Below, piece by piece: positions 3,383 through 30,201 of a stretch of DNA of 30,201 bases (position 1 is its first letter; every line of letters begins with the position of its first letter). The notes below the pieces were generated by a model. It did no database searches. It saw nothing but the letters and a program-made list of their open reading frames with translations, and was not told the origin of the DNA. Location of the stretch: IMG/VR virus record IMGVR_UViG_3300035698_003045, positions 1 to 30,201 of that record; one strand, given 5' to 3'. This DNA is from a virus. Made by a program: the position numbers and the translations under genes.

Positions 3383-4063
3383 AGATCTTTCTAACCCCTA
3401 TCATCGCCAACTGCCCAACCGTCGGGCGCAGCTTCTCGTGCCCCTCGTTCCGCCAGCTCTCGATCATGCGCTGCCGAGCGCCAGCATCCATGTGCGGGGC
3501 CAGCGTGGTCTCAACCATAATCTGCTTGATCTCGGCTACGCGCTCTGCTCGTCGCTCCATGTACGCCTCGATCATCGCCATCGGCATTCTACCGATCTCA
3601 CTCGGCGGGATCTGATACGGCCACGCGCTCAGGACGCTGTAGACGGTGCCCCAGTCTGTGGGGCCTCCGCTTTTTTTTCGGGCGCCTGCGCGATGCTCTG
3701 CTCTTGGTAGAACGTCAACACCTTCATCATCGCGGCCCAAGTCAGCCCCATCTCGGCTAGCTCGGGGTTCAACAACGCCAGCAGCTTCGTGATCATGGTG
3801 TTGGCGCTGACGAACCAATCGGCCTCATGCTTTTCGGCTTCCTCAGCCGTGTGTCCCTTGGCATATTCCTCTGCGCCAGCGCCTATGCCATGCAGCACGC
3901 CATTATACAGACGCTGGATAGTCTGGAACTTTTGCGCCTCCACCGGGCCAAACGCCTCCATGGGCCGCAGCTCATACTCCATACCGCCAAGCGTGACGAC
4001 GATGGGGCAAGATTGCCCCATCAAGTCGTCTAGATTCAAGACCTGTCTCTTTTTTTCAGACAT
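3366..4063 (-). CDS. Tail assembly chaperone, -1 frameshift fusion (G-T type)
   Basis: The longer of two tail-assembly chaperone products. Ribosomes read the first 131 codons from 4063, slip back one base on the A-tract at 3671-3678, and continue in the -1 frame to the stop at 3366-3368, giving about 232 residues. The extension begins SGGPTDWGTVYSVLSAWPYQ and contains IPPSEIGRMPMAMIEAYMERR. By analogy with lambda gpG/gpGT, the fusion would coat the tape measure and recruit major tail protein before leaving the mature tail. The extension has no convincing start codon of its own. It overlaps the tape-measure start by 17 bases. Confidence 0.85.
3629..4063 (-). CDS. Tail assembly chaperone, unshifted form (G type)
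   Basis: A 144-residue protein between the major tail protein and the tape measure, the standard place of the G-type chaperone. Its body (LDDLMGQSCPIVVTLGGMEY, then a helical segment ending TFYQEQSIAQAPEKK) is followed by a short Ala/Pro/Thr tail, APQTGAPSTAS, made only when the ribosome stays in frame. In known siphoviruses most product is this form and a few percent is the fusion. Start ATG is at 4061-4063. It lies 10 bases after the major tail stop. Confidence 0.85.
   Translation of the reverse strand: MSEKKRQVLNLDDLMGQSCPIVVTLGGMEYELRPMEAFGPVEAQKFQTIQRLYNGVLHGIGAGAEEYAKGHTAEEAEKHEADWFVSANTMITKLLALLNPELAEMGLTWAAMMKVLTFYQEQSIAQAPEKKAEAPQTGAPSTAS
3648..3678 (-). promoter_or_regulatory. Programmed -1 ribosomal frameshift site
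   Basis: On the minus strand codons GAA AAA AAA GCG contain a run of eight A (3671-3678), which includes the slippery heptamer A AAA AAA. Six bases downstream is a stem, GCCCC (3660-3664) with GGGGC (3648-3652), enclosing a 7-base loop. Slippery run, short spacer and hairpin are the standard elements of -1 frameshifting. The -1 frame after the slip is open to 3366 and encodes the expected second chaperone domain. Confidence 0.9.
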
Positions 4064-4073
4064 GCACTACTCC

Positions 4074-4658
4074 CTACGCCGTCGCGTCGTCGTTCTGGGC
4101 GATGACTCTGCCGAACTTCTCAGAGACCGAGGCCGCATCGGGGTCTTCAAGTGCCCGCAACTCCACCGGGATCACCATGTTGCCGTCTTTCTTGTACGCC
4201 AGGGCGGTGCTGCCCGAGCAATACCCGACCGGGATCTCGTACTGGATCGGATAGCTGTCACCGTATGGCGACTGCTCCTCGCCACGAATCAGGAACGAAT
4301 ACCGATCGACTGTTGGGCCTCGCGTAAGGCCAAGCGACTTGATGCCGATCTGACTCGCCCCAGGCGCGACGGTCGTGATTGCGTTGCCCATCACCAGCGC
4401 AAGGTTCTCCAGCGTGCCCTCTACCAGATTGATCGCGACGCCCAACGTCTCCTGCGTCCGGATGGCCTTCTTCGGGCCGGTGCTCTGATCGGTAAAGACT
4501 TCGCTGATTGTCTGCTCCATATTCAAGGTCACGCCGTCCTGCGTCTCGCCCAGGTCGGTCCAACCGACGCCCGGCTCGGCATCTACGTCGGGGAACGCGG
4601 TGCCTTCGTCGGCAATGTGCATACCGCATACACCAGTGATGATCTCGTACGTCTCCAT
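4074..4658 (-). CDS. Major tail protein
   Basis: A 194-residue protein predicted to form the tail tube, called from position and composition. It lies between the tail terminator and the frameshifted chaperones and is rich in beta-strand patterns. It includes GVGWTDLGETQDGVTLNMEQ, a pattern seen in tube proteins of the HK97/lambda-like group, and a central ETLGVAINLVEGTLENLALV helix. The start METYEIITG was chosen because it is preceded by AGGAGG (TAGGAGGCTCAAGCAAA ATG); the longer frame to 4730 would run into the tail terminator gene. No Ig-like C-terminal extension is present. Confidence 0.8.
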   Translation of the reverse strand: METYEIITGVCGMHIADEGTAFPDVDAEPGVGWTDLGETQDGVTLNMEQTISEVFTDQSTGPKKAIRTQETLGVAINLVEGTLENLALVMGNAITTVAPGASQIGIKSLGLTRGPTVDRYSFLIRGEEQSPYGDSYPIQYEIPVGYCSGSTALAYKKDGNMVIPVELRALEDPDAASVSEKFGRVIAQNDDATA

Positions 4659-4672
4659 TTTGCTTGAGCCTC

Positions 4673-5095
4673 CTAGCTCGTAGACTGCTCGCTGGCCAAG
4701 ACGGCCCACGAACTCCAAACCATAGGCCAAGCGGTATCGGGTTCGCGGCCCTGAAATGGACCACCCGCCCGCCGAGCTGAATACAACTTCACCCCTGCTG
4801 CTACCTCGCGGCCCATGTTCCGCATGGCATCGTGCGCCGCTTGGTACACGGTCCTAGCCTCTTTCGGCGTCGAGCCGTAGCACGTCAAGTCAACGTCACA
4901 GTGCTCAATCGGCGCATCATTGATGCTCGGCCACCCGCCTGCCAGGCGAACGACCACACATGCCCTCGGCATACTGGTAGACTCGCTCTCGGGCGTCTCC
5001 GCTGGCCAGATCCGCGTAGCGACGACTGCCGCCACCGCGCTGTCCGCTGCGAGATACGCCTGCACGGCGTCCACCACGTCCGGTAGCTGACTCAT
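4673..5095 (-). CDS. Tail terminator / tail completion protein
   Basis: A 140-residue protein starting MSQLPDVVDAVQAYLAADSA, a common opening of tail terminators (gpU-like or Tc1 class), which cap the tail tube and join it to the head. The middle has PRACVVVRLAGG and HCDVDLTCYGSTPKEA, alternating beta-strand and helix as in this fold. Its ATG overlaps the stop of the upstream gp10-like gene as ATGA (5092-5095), so translation is probably coupled. The longer upstream frame is a shadow of that gene. The exact family is not certain; position between neck and tail tube is the strongest support. Confidence 0.72.
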   Translation of the reverse strand: MSQLPDVVDAVQAYLAADSAVAAVVATRIWPAETPESESTSMPRACVVVRLAGGWPSINDAPIEHCDVDLTCYGSTPKEARTVYQAAHDAMRNMGREVAAGVKLYSARRAGGPFQGREPDTAWPMVWSSWAVLASEQSTS

Positions 5096-6795: not shown

Positions 6796-7866
6796 TTACT
6801 CAATCACCAACACGGTGACGGTGGACGTTGTAGCCCAATCAACACTGCCGCCATTACCCAACGAAACCAGCTTGTTCGTGTTGTCGATGACGGTCTCACC
6901 ATCCCATGCAGTCACGGCCCCGCCGCTTGTCGCGATGACTGCGACCAGCACCGCCACGGGCACAAAGTCGAACGCAAAGTGCATGTTCCCCAACGTGACC
7001 TCGGTCGCGTTCGGAACACGATCGACCAGCACCATCTTCTTGATGGCTGCGGCTGCTCCGCCTAGCATGGTCGCTGCGGCCCACACGTTGTTCGCTCCGG
7101 CCAGCGTCTCGGTACACCCGAGCACCACGGCGCCCACGGCATCGGCCACCAGCAGCATCTCAGTCGTGCCGATGTCGACAGCTATGACGGCCTCAGTGCC
7201 AACCTCGTTAATGGTCGCCAGCAAAGCGTCTGTGCCTGCCGCTGGTGTCAGCGTCGTATCAAGTCCGACTGGGATGTTAGTTGTCCCAGGCGAGTCCGAA
7301 ATGTAAATGTCCACCGCGTCGGCGTGACTCGCTGGCGTGGTGCCACATGCGCCGCGCTCAAACGTGTAGCTGTGGCCAGCAATGACGGTCACGCGCATGT
7401 ACTCGGTCTCGGCGCGGATCAAGTCGCCCACCGCCAGCACCGCATCGATGCCGGTGTACGCGGTCATGTCCACCGTCAGCGGGTCCGTGGTATTGCTCCA
7501 CGAATCGTCCGCCGTGTCGTCGCCAGAGTCCGAATTGATGATGTCCACCTCGTAGGTGTCAGCTCCAATAAGCACTGTCTCGTCATCAGCCACAGCGGTC
7601 GGGACGTACAACACGTTCTGCGCCACCACACCAGGGAACCGCAGCAGCATATTCAACTGCGCTTCGGTCGCTGTTACGTCGCCATCGTCCAACATCTGAG
7701 ACCAAACCGGCGACGCCTGTGTGCCTGTGTTCACGTACACCGCAGCATTGACCGTATCAATCAGCGTAGCGCCGACTGCCGCGATCCCCGCGAACGTGAC
7801 CCCATCAGCAGGCATGCCCGCATACTCCAACGGACTGCCCCTGCCGGTGCCTTCGATATAAGTCAT
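6796..7866 (-). CDS. Putative head fibre/decoration structural protein
   Basis: A 356-residue, beta-rich protein directly downstream of the major capsid gene. It opens with a region of the kind found in phage structural proteins (ATLIDTVNAAVYVNTGTQA), then GDVTATEAQLNMLL. The middle holds the motif RAETEYMRVTVIAGHSYTFE followed by RGACGTTPASHADA; this RG-x-x-GT-x-x-x-H-A pattern recurs in virion beta proteins. The C-terminal third is Ala/Val-rich and has no known catalytic residues. A strong ribosome site (AGGAGAGAGAC ATG) is present. A capsid-associated role is inferred from position; a specific family is not assigned. Confidence 0.5.
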   Translation of the reverse strand: MTYIEGTGRGSPLEYAGMPADGVTFAGIAAVGATLIDTVNAAVYVNTGTQASPVWSQMLDDGDVTATEAQLNMLLRFPGVVAQNVLYVPTAVADDETVLIGADTYEVDIINSDSGDDTADDSWSNTTDPLTVDMTAYTGIDAVLAVGDLIRAETEYMRVTVIAGHSYTFERGACGTTPASHADAVDIYISDSPGTTNIPVGLDTTLTPAAGTDALLATINEVGTEAVIAVDIGTTEMLLVADAVGAVVLGCTETLAGANNVWAAATMLGGAAAAIKKMVLVDRVPNATEVTLGNMHFAFDFVPVAVLVAVIATSGGAVTAWDGETVIDNTNKLVSLGNGGSVDWATTSTVTVLVIE

Positions 7867-18301: not shown

Positions 18302-19242
18302 CAGAATAGACCCTCTTGCGCAGGTTCGAGCTCGGGCGCGGCCTGGCCGTCAACGTAGGCCTCCATGGCGGCCAGTGCATCATCCAGCGTGCCGCCGAAC
18401 TGCCCCACGCGCTCGATCGGTTTCCCAGCTGACTTGGAGAGCGCAGCAAACATGTCCTTGTCCGTTAGTGCCAGTTCATTCATCTTGGCCATGAACGTTT
18501 CGCGGTCGCTGAAACTCGCCGTCCAGTGGGGCCCGTCTTTAACCTCGCGGGCCGTGCTGTCGATCACGTCATCGTCCTGAGCGGCCACGGCCTCGCTGAT
18601 GTTGGCCAGCTCTTCCATGCGGTCCTGAGCCCGACCGATGCGCAGGTGCAGCTCGTTGATCCGGGTTGCCAGCGCGTCGGGATCGTCCCACACGTCGGCG
18701 TCGCCACCGTACTGACCGGCGACCATGCCATCGATCTCGTCCGCGCCCAGGCGGTTGCGCTCGACGTCCGGCGCGATCGCGCGGATGCCGGTGCTCAGTG
18801 CGCGGTATCGGAGCATGAGCACCGGCATCTTGTCCCACGTGAACCGGTTGCGCCCGGGCCAGCCGGCCTTGTCAGCTTCGGCCATAGTCAGCGTATGCAC
18901 GTACGGCTCGGTGGCGCCCTTGAGCCAGAACTCGATCACGCAACGCTGGTCCGTGCTCTCCTTGATCGCGTACGTGTGCCCGTCCTTGCGGTATTGGGCC
19001 ACCAGCACTTTGGTGAACTTGCCCACCTGGCCCTGACCAGGCGAGTAGAGCGACTGTACCGATTCCATGGGCCCCAGCCCCATCTCGCGGCCGGTGAGCA
19101 TGAGCACAACCGCCTTCTCTGGTGTGAGGTCTTTGTGCCCCAGGCCGGACCGGACGAACATCTCGCCCATCTGCATAAGCTCTGCGGTGCTGTACACCTG
19201 GAGCCCGTTGTGCTGTCGCACTGCAACTGCTGTGCTTGCCAT
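18301..19242 (-). CDS. RecT-like single-strand annealing protein
   Basis: A 313-residue recombinase of the RecT type, which anneals ssDNA during phage recombination and replication. Family features: TAELMQMGEMFVRSGLGHKD, then AVVLMLTGREMGLGPMESVQ (the helix and Gly-rich turn that opens the core), SLYSPGQGQVGKFTKVLVAQ, and WDKMPVLMLRYRALSTGIRA followed by GADEIDG, which matches the W-x-x-x-P-x-x-M-x-x-x-R-A and E-E/D-[LI] signature. The final ~110 residues are acidic and variable, ending QEGLF. Strong AGGAGG site before ATG. No paired exonuclease is recognised nearby. Confidence 0.8.
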   Translation of the reverse strand: MASTAVAVRQHNGLQVYSTAELMQMGEMFVRSGLGHKDLTPEKAVVLMLTGREMGLGPMESVQSLYSPGQGQVGKFTKVLVAQYRKDGHTYAIKESTDQRCVIEFWLKGATEPYVHTLTMAEADKAGWPGRNRFTWDKMPVLMLRYRALSTGIRAIAPDVERNRLGADEIDGMVAGQYGGDADVWDDPDALATRINELHLRIGRAQDRMEELANISEAVAAQDDDVIDSTAREVKDGPHWTASFSDRETFMAKMNELALTDKDMFAALSKSAGKPIERVGQFGGTLDDALAAMEAYVDGQAAPELEPAQEGLF

Positions 19243-20825: not shown

Positions 20826-20839
20826 ACCCCTCAAGGGGT
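20826..20839 (+). promoter_or_regulatory. Short inverted repeat covering the ribosome site of the plus-strand gene
   Basis: ACCCCT (20826-20831) and AGGGGT (20834-20839) form a compact hairpin, with a 2-base loop that would open somewhat in practice. The right arm contains the AAGGGG ribosome site of the gene starting at 20845, so it could lower its translation until melted. Confidence 0.5.
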
Positions 20840-20844
20840 GTGTG

Positions 20845-21309
20845 ATGGAGCCTGAGCAGATTATTACGTTGGCTGTAGCTATCTACGGCGCGGCCCTTGC
20901 CACATTCAATGCAGTGAGGGCATTCACCTATGAGCGGCGTCAGAGCGGACGACTCGAAGTCGACATTGATGCAATCGGCTACGGGCAGGCTAGTCATGTC
21001 GTGCTTGGTGCGATCAAGATGACCATCACCAACGTTGGCGTTAACGATGCGACCGTCGTGGCCATCGGTTTCCGGCAACGCGGTGACAAACGTAATCTGC
21101 CGATCGGTGCCAAGAGCGAGTTGCCGCGCACACTAGCAGGAACGCACCAATGCTCCTTTGATCTTGCGGCCAACGGCAGTCTGCCGCCGCTCAGTAGTAT
21201 CACTGGCCTTTGGGCCCGTGATACCCTTGGTCGCTATGCCCGCGTTCCTCGGCGGCGGCTTCGCGAGACGCTTGCAAAGCATCCGTGGCCAGACGCTCCA
21301 AAAGGCTGA
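20845..21309 (+). CDS. Plus-strand membrane-anchored accessory protein
   Basis: A 154-residue protein, one of the few on the plus strand. Residues ~5-27 form one membrane segment (IITLAVAIYGAALATFNAVR). The rest is a beta-rich domain: SGRLEVDIDAIGYG, IKMTITNVGVNDATVVAIGF, and LPRTLAGTHQCSFDLA, the layout of small anchored proteins in bacteria and temperate phages. Its 3' end overlaps the opposing gene at 21200-21424 by 110 bases. ATG follows AAGGGG at good spacing. Position against the early operon and a less GC-rich start suggest an acquired accessory (moron-type) gene; a surface or exclusion role is guesswork. Confidence 0.65.
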   Translation: MEPEQIITLAVAIYGAALATFNAVRAFTYERRQSGRLEVDIDAIGYGQASHVVLGAIKMTITNVGVNDATVVAIGFRQRGDKRNLPIGAKSELPRTLAGTHQCSFDLAANGSLPPLSSITGLWARDTLGRYARVPRRRLRETLAKHPWPDAPKG

Positions 21310-21424
21310 TCTGGTGCTGCACCTCTCGCCACGGTCGTCTGCCAACGCTCCATCCAAGCGTGAATGCCGATAGCGATGTGGTCGCCAGGCCCAAAGCCAG
21401 CGTGATCCAGTCTTGCACACTCAC
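21200..21424 (-). CDS. Small membrane protein downstream of repressor
   Basis: A 74-residue protein with one N-terminal membrane segment (ITLALGLATTSLSAFTLGW), then a helical charged part (WREVQHQISLLERLATDALQ). GTG start overlaps the repressor stop (GTGA), with AAGGAGG 7 bases upstream. It ends inside the convergent plus-strand gene. Function unknown. Confidence 0.6.
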   Translation of the reverse strand: MSVQDWITLALGLATTSLSAFTLGWSVGRRPWREVQHQISLLERLATDALQASREAAAEERGHSDQGYHGPKGQ

Positions 21425-21690
21425 GCTCCCACCTCCTTTGCCTCTGCGGGCTGCATGCCATCAGTACGCGCGAGCGTACTGATGGACTCATTCCTAGGCA
21501 AAATAACTGACACTATGTCGCCGTGCTTGTCGGGAAACGCTGCAATGAACGCATTCATTACCTTGAGCCCCGGCTTGCGTTCGCCGTTGAGAATCTTGAC
21601 CAACGTGCTCCTACTCAGGCCGAGATACGCGGCCAGTTCCGTCTTTGTTCTGTTCCCCTGACAACTCTTGACTAGCTCATCAAGCGTCAT
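21421..21690 (-). CDS. Cro/CI-type HTH repressor
   Basis: An 89-residue DNA-binding protein. Residues ~14-50 form the helix-turn-helix: KTELAAYLGLSRSTLVKILN followed by GERKPGLKVMNAFIAAF, the usual HTH_3 order. The start MTLDELVKSC is chosen because GAGGAGG lies 6 bases upstream; the longer frame crosses the promoter. There is no peptidase (LexA-like) domain, so it is Cro-sized. The promoter's -10 lies within the palindrome 21710-21726, so the protein may control its own gene. A 12-bp hairpin occurs inside the 3' coding part. Confidence 0.8.
   Translation of the reverse strand: MTLDELVKSCQGNRTKTELAAYLGLSRSTLVKILNGERKPGLKVMNAFIAAFPDKHGDIVSVILPRNESISTLARTDGMQPAEAKEVGA
21458..21485. other. 12-bp perfect inverted repeat inside repressor gene
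   Basis: Arms CCATCAGTACGC (21458-21469) and GCGTACTGATGG (21474-21485) are perfectly complementary around the 4-base loop GCGA, a GNRA-type tetraloop on plus-strand RNA. No U-run follows either side. It could be an operator, attenuator or antisense-RNA element. Confidence 0.7.
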
Positions 21691-21709
21691 GCTTCCCTCC
21701 TCGCGTACT

Positions 21710-21726
21710 ACTATACGCAGTATAGT
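21710..21726. promoter_or_regulatory. Palindromic operator candidate
   Basis: ACTATAC-GCA-GTATAGT is a perfect 7-bp inverted repeat with a 3-bp centre. It covers the -10 and start region of the minus-strand promoter next to a Cro/CI-type gene, the standard position of an autorepressor operator. Confidence 0.75.
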
Positions 21727-21747
21727 CGATAGAGACGCACTTGTCAA
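21719..21747 (-). promoter_or_regulatory. Sigma-70-type early promoter (minus strand)
   Basis: -35 TTGACA (21742-21747) is consensus; the spacer is 17 bases; -10 is TATACT (21719-21724). Transcription would start about 6-8 bases further down, near 21711, and read the repressor and early genes. The -10 is inside the palindrome 21710-21726. Confidence 0.85.
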
Positions 21748-21790
21748 GGACTCTTGTACGCATATTCGTCCACAACACGCTATTTCGGGT

Positions 21791-21796
21791 TATAAT
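21791..21796 (+). promoter_or_regulatory. -10 element for leaderless plus-strand transcript
   Basis: A perfect TATAAT ends six bases before ATG (21803). Transcription would begin at or next to the start codon, giving a leaderless mRNA as in lambda PRM-made cI. The -35 region is poor, so an activator may be needed. Confidence 0.6.
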
Positions 21797-21802
21797 CTAA
21801 GC

Positions 21803-21988
21803 ATGGATCAGAACATCCTCGGCAGCAGAATAGAAGACATGCTTGAGCTGCGCGAGTGGTCGGGTCGCAAGCTTGCGTTCAAGTCAGGTTTGACAAGCTC
21901 GCACGTGTCAAAGATCATCCGCCCGAGCTTGAGGACATCGATGTGCTGCGCCGCGAGCTGCAGGCGGCCGTCGACCAGGGGCAGGTGA
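21803..21988 (+). CDS. Truncated HTH repressor-like protein (chimeric end)
   Basis: A 61-codon frame, divergent from the other repressor. Residues 1-40 are a Cro/CI helix-turn-helix: GSRIEDMLELREWSGRKLAF, then KSGLTSSHVSKII. The normal family would continue for 20-150 residues; here the frame runs into the recombinase remnant out of frame and ends in Cys/Arg/Ser-rich sequence (SMCCAASCRRPSTRGR). GC content rises sharply near 21918. No ribosome site is seen; the transcript appears leaderless. It could still make a small DNA-binding protein, or be dead. Confidence 0.6.
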   Translation: MDQNILGSRIEDMLELREWSGRKLAFKSGLTSSHVSKIIRPSLRTSMCCAASCRRPSTRGR

Positions 21989-22095
21989 AGGCGGCTAGGG
22001 CGATGCTGTCCGGGCTGCTTGACCACATCGTCGTGCTTGACGGAACCCTTCAGGTGCGCTATCGTCTGGGCTATCGGTCTGTGCCCCCTTTTTGA
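21918..22095 (+). pseudogene. C-terminal remnant of a large serine recombinase (integrase)
   Basis: In the -1 frame relative to the HTH start, about 58 codons read PELEDIDVLRRELQAAVDQ, GQVKAARAMLSGLLDHIVVL, DGTLQVRYRLGYRSVPPF, then TGA. The order (short helix, R-x-x-L-x-x-L-x-x-x-I-V, then a D-G-x-L-x-V-x-Y-R strand pair) is that seen at the very end of many large serine recombinases. No catalytic domain, zinc ribbon or start is present. An attP-like inverted repeat begins 4 bases after the stop. Recognition is from pattern memory; a profile search is needed. Confidence 0.5.
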
Positions 22096-22098
22096 GTG

Positions 22099-22152
22099 CC
22101 GACATGGATACACTCAACTCTCCCTTGGGGGTACTAACCGTATCCATGTCGG
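22099..22152. other. attP-like inverted repeat
   Basis: Perfect 13-base arms CCGACATGGATAC (22099-22111) and GTATCCATGTCGG (22140-22152) flank 28 bases. The exact centre is CCC-TT-GGG (22122-22129) with a non-palindromic TT. A ~50-bp partly symmetric site with an asymmetric central dinucleotide, beside a serine-integrase 3' end, is how attP sites of this class look. It could instead be a protein operator. Confidence 0.5.
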
Positions 22153-22164
22153 ATGCAAAGAACA

Positions 22165-22190
22165 AGCCCCGCACATCATAGTGCGGGGCT
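22165..22190. terminator. Bidirectional rho-independent terminator
   Basis: Perfect 10-base arms AGCCCCGCAC and GTGCGGGGCT with a 6-base loop. On the minus strand TGTTCTTTG follows; on the plus strand GTTTGCTGTCTT. It closes the late lysis operon from the right and the control-region transcript from the left. The 122 bases between it and the holin-like stop hold only GC-rich partial repeats (CCCCAGGG-type) and no gene. Confidence 0.8.
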
Positions 22191-22312: not shown

Positions 22313-22606
22313 TCAGTTGGGTTCCGGCAAACTCGGCGCTCGGTCCTGAAGGTCGTAAATAAACGTGCTACCCGCGCCGATACACAAACATGTGATGATG
22401 CGCCCCACCATGGGCATCGCATCAAATACGGGTAGCGCGTTGATGCCAGTGGCCCAGCCGCCAAGCGATCCCAACAGCACGGCAACATAGCCAAGCCAGA
22501 ACAGGTCAAGGTTGAACTTCTCCCATGCCGGCTTGACCAGCTTGTCAACGAGCTGCTCGAGAATCCACGCGGCCATAATGGCCAGGGCCAGAGATTCATA
22601 GTTCAT
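22313..22606 (-). CDS. Holin-like membrane protein
   Basis: A 97-residue protein with two or three membrane segments: SLALAIMAAWILEQLV, FWLGYVAVLLGSLGGWATG, and GRIITCLCIGAGSTFIYDL, with a short polar tail. Last gene of the lysis cassette, after lysin and XhlA-like gene. It likely forms or helps form the membrane lesion. No sequence family assigned. Confidence 0.65.
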   Translation of the reverse strand: MNYESLALAIMAAWILEQLVDKLVKPAWEKFNLDLFWLGYVAVLLGSLGGWATGINALPVFDAMPMVGRIITCLCIGAGSTFIYDLQDRAPSLPEPN

Positions 22607-22615
22607 GCTATCCTC

Positions 22616-22936
22616 CTACGGGTTGGGTCCATTCCACCAAGTTACGATCAAACCGCCTAGCCCGCCCATCCCTGCAATCACAGCGATGATGCGGCTCTCT
22701 AGTTTGCGGGCGTGGTCGACCTCGCCGATGCGTTTGTCGATCCCGTCCATGCGGGTTTCGTGGTTTTCCGCGCACACCTCCATGCGAGTCACACGGTCAT
22801 GGTCGGCCGCCAGGCGTTGGTTGGTGAGGCGTTGTTCGCCCTTGATCTCGCGCAGCTCCTGGAGGATGTTGATGTTTTGCTCCTCCAGGCGGGCCAGCGT
22901 CACGCGGCCGTTGGGGGTGTCCGGCGGTGGGGTCAT
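22616..22936 (-). CDS. XhlA-like lysis accessory protein
   Basis: A 106-residue protein: a long coiled-coil (ARLEEQNINILQELREIKGE through MEVCAENHETRMDGIDKRIG) followed by one C-terminal membrane segment (IIAVIAGMGGLGGLIVTWW). This is the layout of haemolysin XhlA proteins, which act with holin and lysin. ATG overlaps the lysin stop. Spanin or other anchor is possible, but order supports lysis. Confidence 0.7.
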   Translation of the reverse strand: MTPPPDTPNGRVTLARLEEQNINILQELREIKGEQRLTNQRLAADHDRVTRMEVCAENHETRMDGIDKRIGEVDHARKLESRIIAVIAGMGGLGGLIVTWWNGPNP

Positions 22937-24381
22937 GATTTTAGCGTCTCCTCTAGACGGTAGTGCAACTGGATCAGTGACAGATGTATCTCGTCAGCGC
23001 GATCGGGCCTGCCGCTCTCACGCGCGCGGCGCATCTCCTCCATCCACCAGCGGCACTTGTCTGCCAGCGTGGCCGGGTCTGTGGCCGTTTCGTCCATCGG
23101 CAGGGGCTCGCGAGGGGCAGGGATCACGCTGATCTGCCAAGCCGTGAAATCGCGCACCTCGGGCTCTTTCAGCTCGAAATCCCACCACGTTTGTTCAGCG
23201 CCCAGCGTGTACACAAAGGCGGCCAGCATCAGCGGGTCGTTGGCCATCTCTTGGTCAAGCCACTGGAGTTGCGGCCTGTAGGCATTCCAGGTTTGTGCCC
23301 ACGTGCGCCAGCCGGTGCGAGCGCAGCCTACAGGTTGCACCCCGCCATCGATGCCCGTTTCGGTCAATAGCCAGGGCGGCGAATCGAACCCCGCGTCAGC
23401 CCAGCGCTCGATGATACCCCGGTAGCGCAGCGCGTGGTGGGCATATCGATCGGTCATGAACGGCGCCGAATAGCCATGATAGCCCATCAGATCACACGCT
23501 TTGGCCATGGGGATCATCTCGACAACGTCGGGCCAATCGGGCCAGCCCACGGCGAAACTGCCGCCCACCACGCGCATGCCGCGGGTGTGCATGATGTTGG
23601 CCCAGGCAATGGTGAACACGATCAGCGCCGCGCGTTTGGCCGGGTCGCCCATGAACGGTTCGTTGGGGCCTTCCCAGGCGTAGACATAGGGCGCCCGCTC
23701 GTAGGCCTCGCGACAGCGCTCGAAATACGCCTCGGCACCTGCCTGGCCGCGCACGATGAACTGATCCATCTCGACATCGTCGCCGCCGATCCACACGCGG
23801 CCGATCACGTTGACGCGGTCGGGATTGACGGGGCAGTCGTTTCGCTCAGGTGGGTCCATGATCTTGAGCCACTCAATAGGCGAATCGGCCAGCGCGGCTT
23901 TGAGCCATTTGCATTTCGCCAGCGTTTGCACGTGCCATGATATTTTGCTAGGCCCCACGAATGCCTCCTTTCCAATGAACGGTAACGGGTCGACGTATCC
24001 GAAATAGTCGCTGTTATGTTGCGCCCTGATCCACAGCGCCAAGTGCAGGTGCGGGCCTGTAGAGCGTCCTGTGTTGCCGCTCAGGGCCACGATCTGGCCG
24101 GCCTCGACTGTGCCTGATGCCAGAACCGCCGACAGGTGGGCCAACACGACCTTGCCCCCAAGCTCGTCCGATTTGATATCGACGTGCAGCCCGTAGGCCG
24201 ACTCCAGATGCCCGTTGGCCACCAGCTTGCCCGATATTGGCGCCCGAATCGGCGTGCCCACTGGTACGGCGAAATCCACGCCCTCATGGCCCGGCAGGTT
24301 GAATGGCGCGTACCATTCGGGATTCTCGCCAAACCGCTGCGAGATACGCGCCCCTGGGCAGGGGTGCACTAGCTTGATCAC
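22933..24381 (-). CDS. Two-domain lysin: M23 peptidase plus glycoside hydrolase
   Basis: A 482-residue cell-wall enzyme. Residues 1-135 are a LytM/M23 zinc endopeptidase: His32 and Asp36 in HEGVDF, His82 in AHL, and His111/His113 in GPHLHLALW. Residues ~145-420 form a (beta/alpha)8 glycoside hydrolase of clan GH-A: WEGPNEP with probable acid/base Glu241, and LLTETGID with probable nucleophile Glu341. The final ~60 residues are charged helix. GTG start overlaps the lectin stop. No signal peptide, so release needs the holin. Both sites look intact; substrates are unknown, and a virion role is possible. Confidence 0.85.
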   Translation of the reverse strand: MIKLVHPCPGARISQRFGENPEWYAPFNLPGHEGVDFAVPVGTPIRAPISGKLVANGHLESAYGLHVDIKSDELGGKVVLAHLSAVLASGTVEAGQIVALSGNTGRSTGPHLHLALWIRAQHNSDYFGYVDPLPFIGKEAFVGPSKISWHVQTLAKCKWLKAALADSPIEWLKIMDPPERNDCPVNPDRVNVIGRVWIGGDDVEMDQFIVRGQAGAEAYFERCREAYERAPYVYAWEGPNEPFMGDPAKRAALIVFTIAWANIMHTRGMRVVGGSFAVGWPDWPDVVEMIPMAKACDLMGYHGYSAPFMTDRYAHHALRYRGIIERWADAGFDSPPWLLTETGIDGGVQPVGCARTGWRTWAQTWNAYRPQLQWLDQEMANDPLMLAAFVYTLGAEQTWWDFELKEPEVRDFTAWQISVIPAPREPLPMDETATDPATLADKCRWWMEEMRRARESGRPDRADEIHLSLIQLHYRLEETLKS

Positions 24382-29515: not shown

Positions 29516-30201
29516 CTATACTGCTGAATACTGAGCATTGAACCGGATCTCTGCCCGTGTACTCGTGGTCCCGTTCACAAACGAAATGTGCATCGTGTTG
29601 CTCCCGCCCAACCCTTCTGGATGCGGGGCCAGGTGAAACGTAAAGTCGCTATCGTTCGCTAAAAAGTCGGCCAACTCGGTGTTGTCCGTGCTGCTCTCGA
29701 CACTCTTGACACCGTACCCCAGGTCCACCGTGACGACCTCGGTGCTGCCGATGCTGTGGCCTGTCAGGTCCAGCTTCTCATCGGTCGTCTCGTTCTCAAT
29801 CAAAAAGTCTTCTGCCGGGCCATAGACGTACACTTTCGGGTTGACTGCTTCGGTCCCCACGTAGGTACGCACTTGTGTAACGTCCAGCACTGAGGCGCCA
29901 AACCCCTCGGGCAAGCCCACGCCGTACCCCCAGGTGCCGTCACCGGAGCCCAGGGCGTAGCTCCAAATCGTCGTCGTCGGGTCGTACCACATCGGCTTGC
30001 TGGCCGTCAATCGAAACGCCGACGCCGTGCGGTAAACGCCACCCTTGGCCTTCGTCGGCATCGTGAGTTGCCCGCCGTACCGAACGGCCATATACCGCTC
30101 CACCCCGCCGTCCAGTTCAATAGCGAAAAACAAATCTTCCCCAATGTTCTTGAGCATCGACGCCAGCGCCAAGCGTGCTGCTTGATACGTCGCGTCGCTC
30201 G
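29516..30201 (-). CDS. Distal tail protein (Dit-like), C-terminal part, cut by contig end
   Basis: Continues the gene that starts at 329 once ends are joined; the frame is open to the contig end. This part has LKNIGEDLFFAIELDGGVER, YMAVRYGGQLTMPTKAKGG, FRLTASKPMWYDPTTTIWS, and a C-terminal beta domain with TMHISFVNGTTSTRAEIRF. The pattern is that of phage tail family (Dit-type) proteins. It ends 10 bases before the fibre start. Confidence 0.78.
   Translation of the reverse strand, partial: SDATYQAARLALASMLKNIGEDLFFAIELDGGVERYMAVRYGGQLTMPTKAKGGVYRTASAFRLTASKPMWYDPTTTIWSYALGSGDGTWGYGVGLPEGFGASVLDVTQVRTYVGTEAVNPKVYVYGPAEDFLIENETTDEKLDLTGHSIGSTEVVTVDLGYGVKSVESSTDNTELADFLANDSDFTFHLAPHPEGLGGSNTMHISFVNGTTSTRAEIRFNAQYSAV
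30075..30201. repeat. Terminal direct repeat, right copy
   Basis: Identical to positions 1-127. It duplicates codons inside the Dit-like gene; one copy should be removed when circularising. Confidence 0.9.

Follow-up and report, generated by a model that had tools for sequence, protein, structure and literature searches.

A repressor start joined to a serine-integrase end: a probable deletion scar in the lysogeny module of an uncultured phage

A lysogeny-module skeleton in a circular genome

Does a short plus-strand locus in this viral genome, where a repressor-like reading frame gives way to what resembles the end of an integrase, record a deletion in a temperate ancestor? The window, meaning the whole stretch of DNA that was analysed, comprises 30,201 bases of viral DNA and carries an exact 127-bp repeat at its two ends (1–127 = 30075–30201). 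An identical terminal repeat is the usual appearance of a circular genome after k-mer assembly. Because of these identical ends, and because a Dit-like ORF runs uninterrupted across the circle join, the genome is probably complete as a circle of 30,074 bp. The minus strand carries all of the main genes for structure and replication; these include the genes for the tape measure, capsid, protease, portal, terminase and tail proteins, as well as replication initiation, helicase loader, RecT-like and M23 endolysin genes.

At 21.7–22.2 kb the genome contains the skeleton of a lysogeny module, made up of a Cro-like gene, divergent promoters, a palindromic operator, an HTH start and a recombinase end (Table 1). 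The sequence-only reading of this DNA had stated that no other integrase is present. On a contig that closes as a circle, this was borne out for two profiles: Resolvase (PF00239) has zero matches in the whole genome, so that the catalytic domain is absent, and the tyrosine-integrase profile Phage_integrase (PF00589) matches nowhere in the genome.

Table 1. Coordinates of the features at and around the locus (positions in the window)
Feature	Position	Strand	Remarks
Cro-like HTH gene	21421–21690	−	89 aa; ATG 21688–21690; strong AGGAGG-type ribosome site, start read from sequence
Candidate operator	21710–21726		Predicted; perfect palindrome ACTATAC-GCA-GTATAGT, over the −10 of the leftward promoter
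Candidate leftward early promoter	21719–21747	−	TTGACA-17-TATACT; 11/12 consensus positions
Candidate repressor promoter	21769–21796	+	TCCACA-16-TATAAT; 10/12 consensus positions
CI-type repressor remnant	21803–21921	+	First ~40 codons; HTH cut within the domain
Inferred deletion junction	21918–21925		Marked by frame jump and GC step; precise point ambiguous
Large serine recombinase remnant	21919–22095	+	Last ~58 codons and stop; custom C-terminal profile
Candidate attP	22099–22152		54-bp dyad; perfect 13-bp outer arms CCGACATGGATAC/GTATCCATGTCGG; non-palindromic centre TT
Bidirectional intrinsic terminator	22165–22190		Between integrase remnant and convergent lysis genes
Two small convergent genes	22313–22936	−	97 and 106 aa; predicted hydrophobic stretches; possibly holin-like
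M23 endolysin gene	22933–24381	−	PF01551, E=1.2e-18; adjoins the two small genes

The Cro-like gene is the first in the leftward early operon. A longer ORF covering it (21424–21747) matches both HTH_3 (PF01381, E=1.3e-8) and the HTH family phrog_3642 (E=3.5e-8). Between the Cro-like and the CI-like gene lie divergent promoters and an operator, all predicted from sequence only, in the arrangement of a temperate switch. Five promoter-like sites were found in the 1-kb region compared to 0.3 expected, and a diverged half copy of the operator palindrome is present at 21750–21762 (direct repeat D5). From the candidate rightward promoter, the repressor ATG at 21803 would be nearly leaderless.

Two further observations concern the leftward side of the switch. 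An inverted repeat, CCATCAGTACGC-gcga-GCGTACTGATGG, is located at 21458–21485, at the 3' end of the Cro-like gene, and is possibly an operator or an RNA hairpin. Inside the leftward early region, a plus-strand ORF of about 156 aa (20839–21309) has a membrane-type N-terminus and gave no match in a family search; it may represent a gene for superinfection, or one expressed in lysogeny, that survived loss of the module.

Remnants of a repressor and a serine recombinase

The plus-strand ORF that starts at ATG 21803 encodes MDQNILGSRIEDMLELREWSGRKLAFKSGLTSSHVSKIIR, a CI/Cro-type HTH start whose sense is lost near codon 40. Against PF01381 this remnant scored 14.5 bits (E=0.038; cut-off 23) over profile positions 2–31 of 55, with the match ending at residue 40, and against PHROGs it matched phage repressors at weak scores (phrog_2439, E=0.083). 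It contains no complete HTH_3 domain above the cut-off, and we attribute the partial match below the cut-off to truncation of the gene in mid-domain. The assignment as a repressor combines these sub-threshold HTH matches with the context of the gene. Past the remnant, out-of-frame codons run to a stop at 21986–21988.

At the junction the −1 frame takes over (ORF 21847–22092, stop 22093–22095). The junction is bracketed by the end of the HTH match and the start of the recombinase profile match, and GC content rises there from 52% (21803–21917) to 65% (21918–22095). That a CI/Cro-type frame is lost after about 40 codons at a jump in GC content, as had been noticed from the letters, is confirmed both by where the HTH match ends and by this step.

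The −1 frame ORF carries the tail PELEDIDVLRRELQAAVDQGQVKAARAMLSGLLDHIVVLDGTLQVRYRLGYRSVPPF, whose GC content by codon position (0.81/0.37/0.76) is coding-like. Searches of Pfam, PHROGs and NCBIfam with the tail gave nothing useful. We built a custom profile from the C-termini of 107 large serine recombinases, drawn from Chloroflexota and Actinomycetota genomes plus a few others and aligned without the window sequence. With this profile, the tail came top among 35,885 six-frame ORFs at 19.1 bits (E=0.0024; best decoy 11.6), a score that not one of 20,000 shuffled versions of the tail attained. A smaller sub-family profile again ranked the tail first. The proposed resemblance of the 58 codons in the −1 frame to a serine recombinase terminus is thus upheld by the ranking and shuffles obtained with a purpose-built C-terminal profile, and not by any of the existing libraries.

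Six held-out recombinases of capsid relatives scored 40.7, 40.4, 28.2, 27.4, 23.6 and 4.6 with the same 107-sequence profile. Since the score of the tail falls between those of the decoys and those of most of these true recombinases, it is credible for a truncated piece. In addition, as in true recombinases, the profile match reaches the final strand (RYRL) ahead of the stop. We have little doubt that the tail is the end of a large serine recombinase, with the reservation that just 59 residues hold limited information. As C-terminal likeness is present and the Resolvase domain is absent genome-wide, the tail is a remnant and not a member of the family. Searching with the tail, by tblastn or by pattern, yielded no close relative in phages, plasmids, viral or genome contigs, or some 1,050 genomes belonging to three phyla. 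The weak matches obtained (including L153 and L243–L246) were discarded, those inspected not being recombinases.

A candidate attachment site beside the recombinase remnant

Three bases past the stop of the recombinase remnant begins a 54-bp dyad which, like the divergent promoters and the Cro-like gene, had gone unmentioned in the sequence-only reading. Comparable dyads occur at 0.29 per 30 kb in a background of two million bases of related DNA. In the attP of A118, the integrase dimer contacts 50 bp, with the zinc-ribbon motif at positions 16–24 of each half-site (PMC3783163); the arms of the dyad occupy positions 14–26 from its centre. A tRNA gene was found at the 3' end of 26 of the 86 related recombinases and at the 5' end of none, which places the att junction 3' of the gene in that set. 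Because of its A118-like arm geometry, its rarity and its place 3' of the gene, the dyad is probably attP. None of the viral contigs in which the dyad arms were sought carries them, and the flanks of related intact integrases show no equally clear dyad and no consistent pattern.

We also considered the dyad as a terminator. It does fold (z=−4), yet its inner segment is 28 nt long, a T-run is lacking and a canonical terminator is present separately; this candidate role was rejected. The sole other dyad of at least 13 bp at this spacing in the genome is a perfect 14-bp inverted repeat with an 18-bp loop, located within the RecT-like gene (18784–18829). Among the recombinases of Chloroflexota and Actinomycetota examined here (L139–L276, n = 86), C-termini often enter tRNA-derived sequence with IRTxDL-type motifs, and the tRNA genes at their 3' ends are nearly always on the opposite strand.

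No family was found for the two small convergent genes beyond the terminator. In the endolysin, the M23 peptidase domain is N-terminal; the C-terminal part of about 300 aa is unnamed by the libraries and appears glycoside hydrolase-like by eye.

Origin of the junction and comparison with known systems

Of 49 contigs encoding a related capsid protein, 6 have a large serine recombinase. The IMG/VR contig L388, whose capsid protein is 51% identical to that of this phage, has an HTH repressor followed by an ImmA/IrrE-type protease and the recombinase, all on one strand and divergent from the early genes. In the IMG/VR contig L386 (capsid 43% identical), the recombinase comes after a repressor-like gene, which was assigned by eye and is not recognised by Pfam, and a small ORF; all three converge on small genes and the gene for a GH25 endolysin. 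These modules are intact, and their order, strand and position are those of the remnants in this phage, whereas their recombinases are not close in sequence to the tail. By analogy, this arrangement is the layout predicted for the parent. Both halves of the sequence-only reading, a repressor start and a serine-integrase end, hold, and the order of the module matches that of these distant relatives. As for relatives with the full integrase, L386 and L388 keep the intact repressor–(protease)–integrase order and are distant; a near-identical parent with an undeleted locus was not found, but the collections may omit records very near the window, so its absence shows little.

Terminase relatives (L004–L056) show no synteny at this locus, and only 1 of the 42 searched for a recombinase carries one, which is short. 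In the terminase relative L036, a 281-aa serine recombinase is encoded at 4004–4849 (plus strand), and a 54-bp dyad built of ACCGACAAA repeats lies between small HTH genes at 6961–7014.

We propose that the ancestor was a temperate siphovirus in which a Cro-like gene and the early operon ran leftward and a CI-type repressor ran rightward. The ancestral rightward order would have been repressor, any intervening genes, large serine integrase and attP, followed by the convergent lysis genes. A single and presumably recent deletion, of roughly 2–3 kb by analogy with L386 and L388, would then have fused the repressor at codon ~40 to the integrase at a point some 58 codons ahead of its stop. No clear repeat was recognised at the deletion end-points. 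The C-terminal part of the repressor would have been removed together with the catalytic domain, the DNA-binding recombinase domain, the zinc ribbon and most of the coiled coil of the integrase, and the divergent promoters, operator and attP would have been spared. Without the repressor the early operon would be constitutively on, and without the integrase attP would lie idle, so that the phage would no longer integrate and would be expected to behave as obligately lytic. Repressor and integrase are both defective here, and their remnants lie where a lytic phage derived by deletion would be expected to have them. Overall, it is very likely that a deletion between the repressor and the integrase of a temperate ancestor gave rise to a non-integrating derivative. 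Since this deletion would have spared a complete putative attP, there is a small chance that the phage still integrates with a matching serine integrase provided in trans by a related phage or prophage. If so, its lysogeny would be conditional and dependent on a helper, and the phage would not be strictly lytic.

Other origins of the junction were weighed against this deletion. The sampled phages could carry the full module, with the junction arising from misjoined k-mers or with a minority deletion form being reported. The contig is indeed metagenomic, but it forms a perfect circle with an intact ORF over the join, and the two sides of the junction suit a single lysogeny module, with order and strand as expected. 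Furthermore, the direct repeats at the junction are imperfect, 21 nt long and 90–98 bp apart, and therefore cannot collapse a multi-kb segment, leaving an assembly artefact or population variant improbable. We give a similarly low probability to a mosaic join, in which illegitimate recombination brought in the integrase tail and attP from another phage, so that this integrase and the repressor never belonged to one module. Phage genomes are generally mosaic and the GC step at the junction would fit such a join; however, order, strand and position equal those of the intact L386/L388 module, and a single internal deletion needs fewer steps.

It is very improbable that the locus is due to chance, the tail being no more than a random open frame in GC-rich sequence and the repressor piece a false start. 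At 61% GC, long ORFs do occur often, and the tail has no library match, but its first rank, the failure of every shuffle and its coding-like codon-position GC speak against chance, as do the attP-like dyad and switch elements that adjoin the remnants. A functional fusion, in which a frameshift joins the HTH and the recombinase tail into a small regulator, is extremely improbable: the frames overlap at 21847–21985 and a −1 shift could join them, but no slippery heptamer was seen by eye at the overlap, a homologue with such an arrangement was sought and not found, and the HTH domain is cut inside its fold.

Conversion from temperate to lytic growth is usually shown in phages that are in culture and whose parent is known. 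In this case, the scar is legible from one uncultured genome, which still shows the broken ends of two genes together with the switch and a putative attP. The last ~60 residues of serine integrases escape standard libraries. Since integrase ends are invisible in this way, scars of this type are probably reported too rarely, as are mistaken lifestyle assignments of environmental phages, and a C-terminal profile of the kind built here could serve to find more of them.

A deletion of this kind has precedents in D29 and TM4, so the type of event is already known. D29 is a lytic deletion derivative of a temperate parent that lost ~3.6 kb, with an end-point inside the repressor, in an event attributed to a 3-bp repeat (PMC5712189). 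In both D29 and this phage, a deletion end lies inside the repressor gene and the integration site is left (a putative attP here), and in D29 the deletion ends share little or no homology beyond that short repeat. D29 retains a fully functional integrase, whereas just the integrase end remains here, and the family is that of the large serine recombinases. TM4 lost the integration apparatus of its temperate parent and no longer forms lysogens (PMC3203893). In that case the integrase, of the tyrosine type in relatives, was lost together with attP, and a separate deletion is thought to have removed the repressor; in contrast, the putative attP survives here and one junction affects both genes. 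Compared to large serine integrases and attP sites of the A118 type (PMC3783163), the tail matches the C-terminus, and the dyad of the putative attP is of about 50 bp with outer arms at the region of the zinc-ribbon motif, but only ~58 codons are left, without the catalytic, recombinase and zinc domains. The event seems to be a clear and cleanly documented example of a known route to purely lytic phages.
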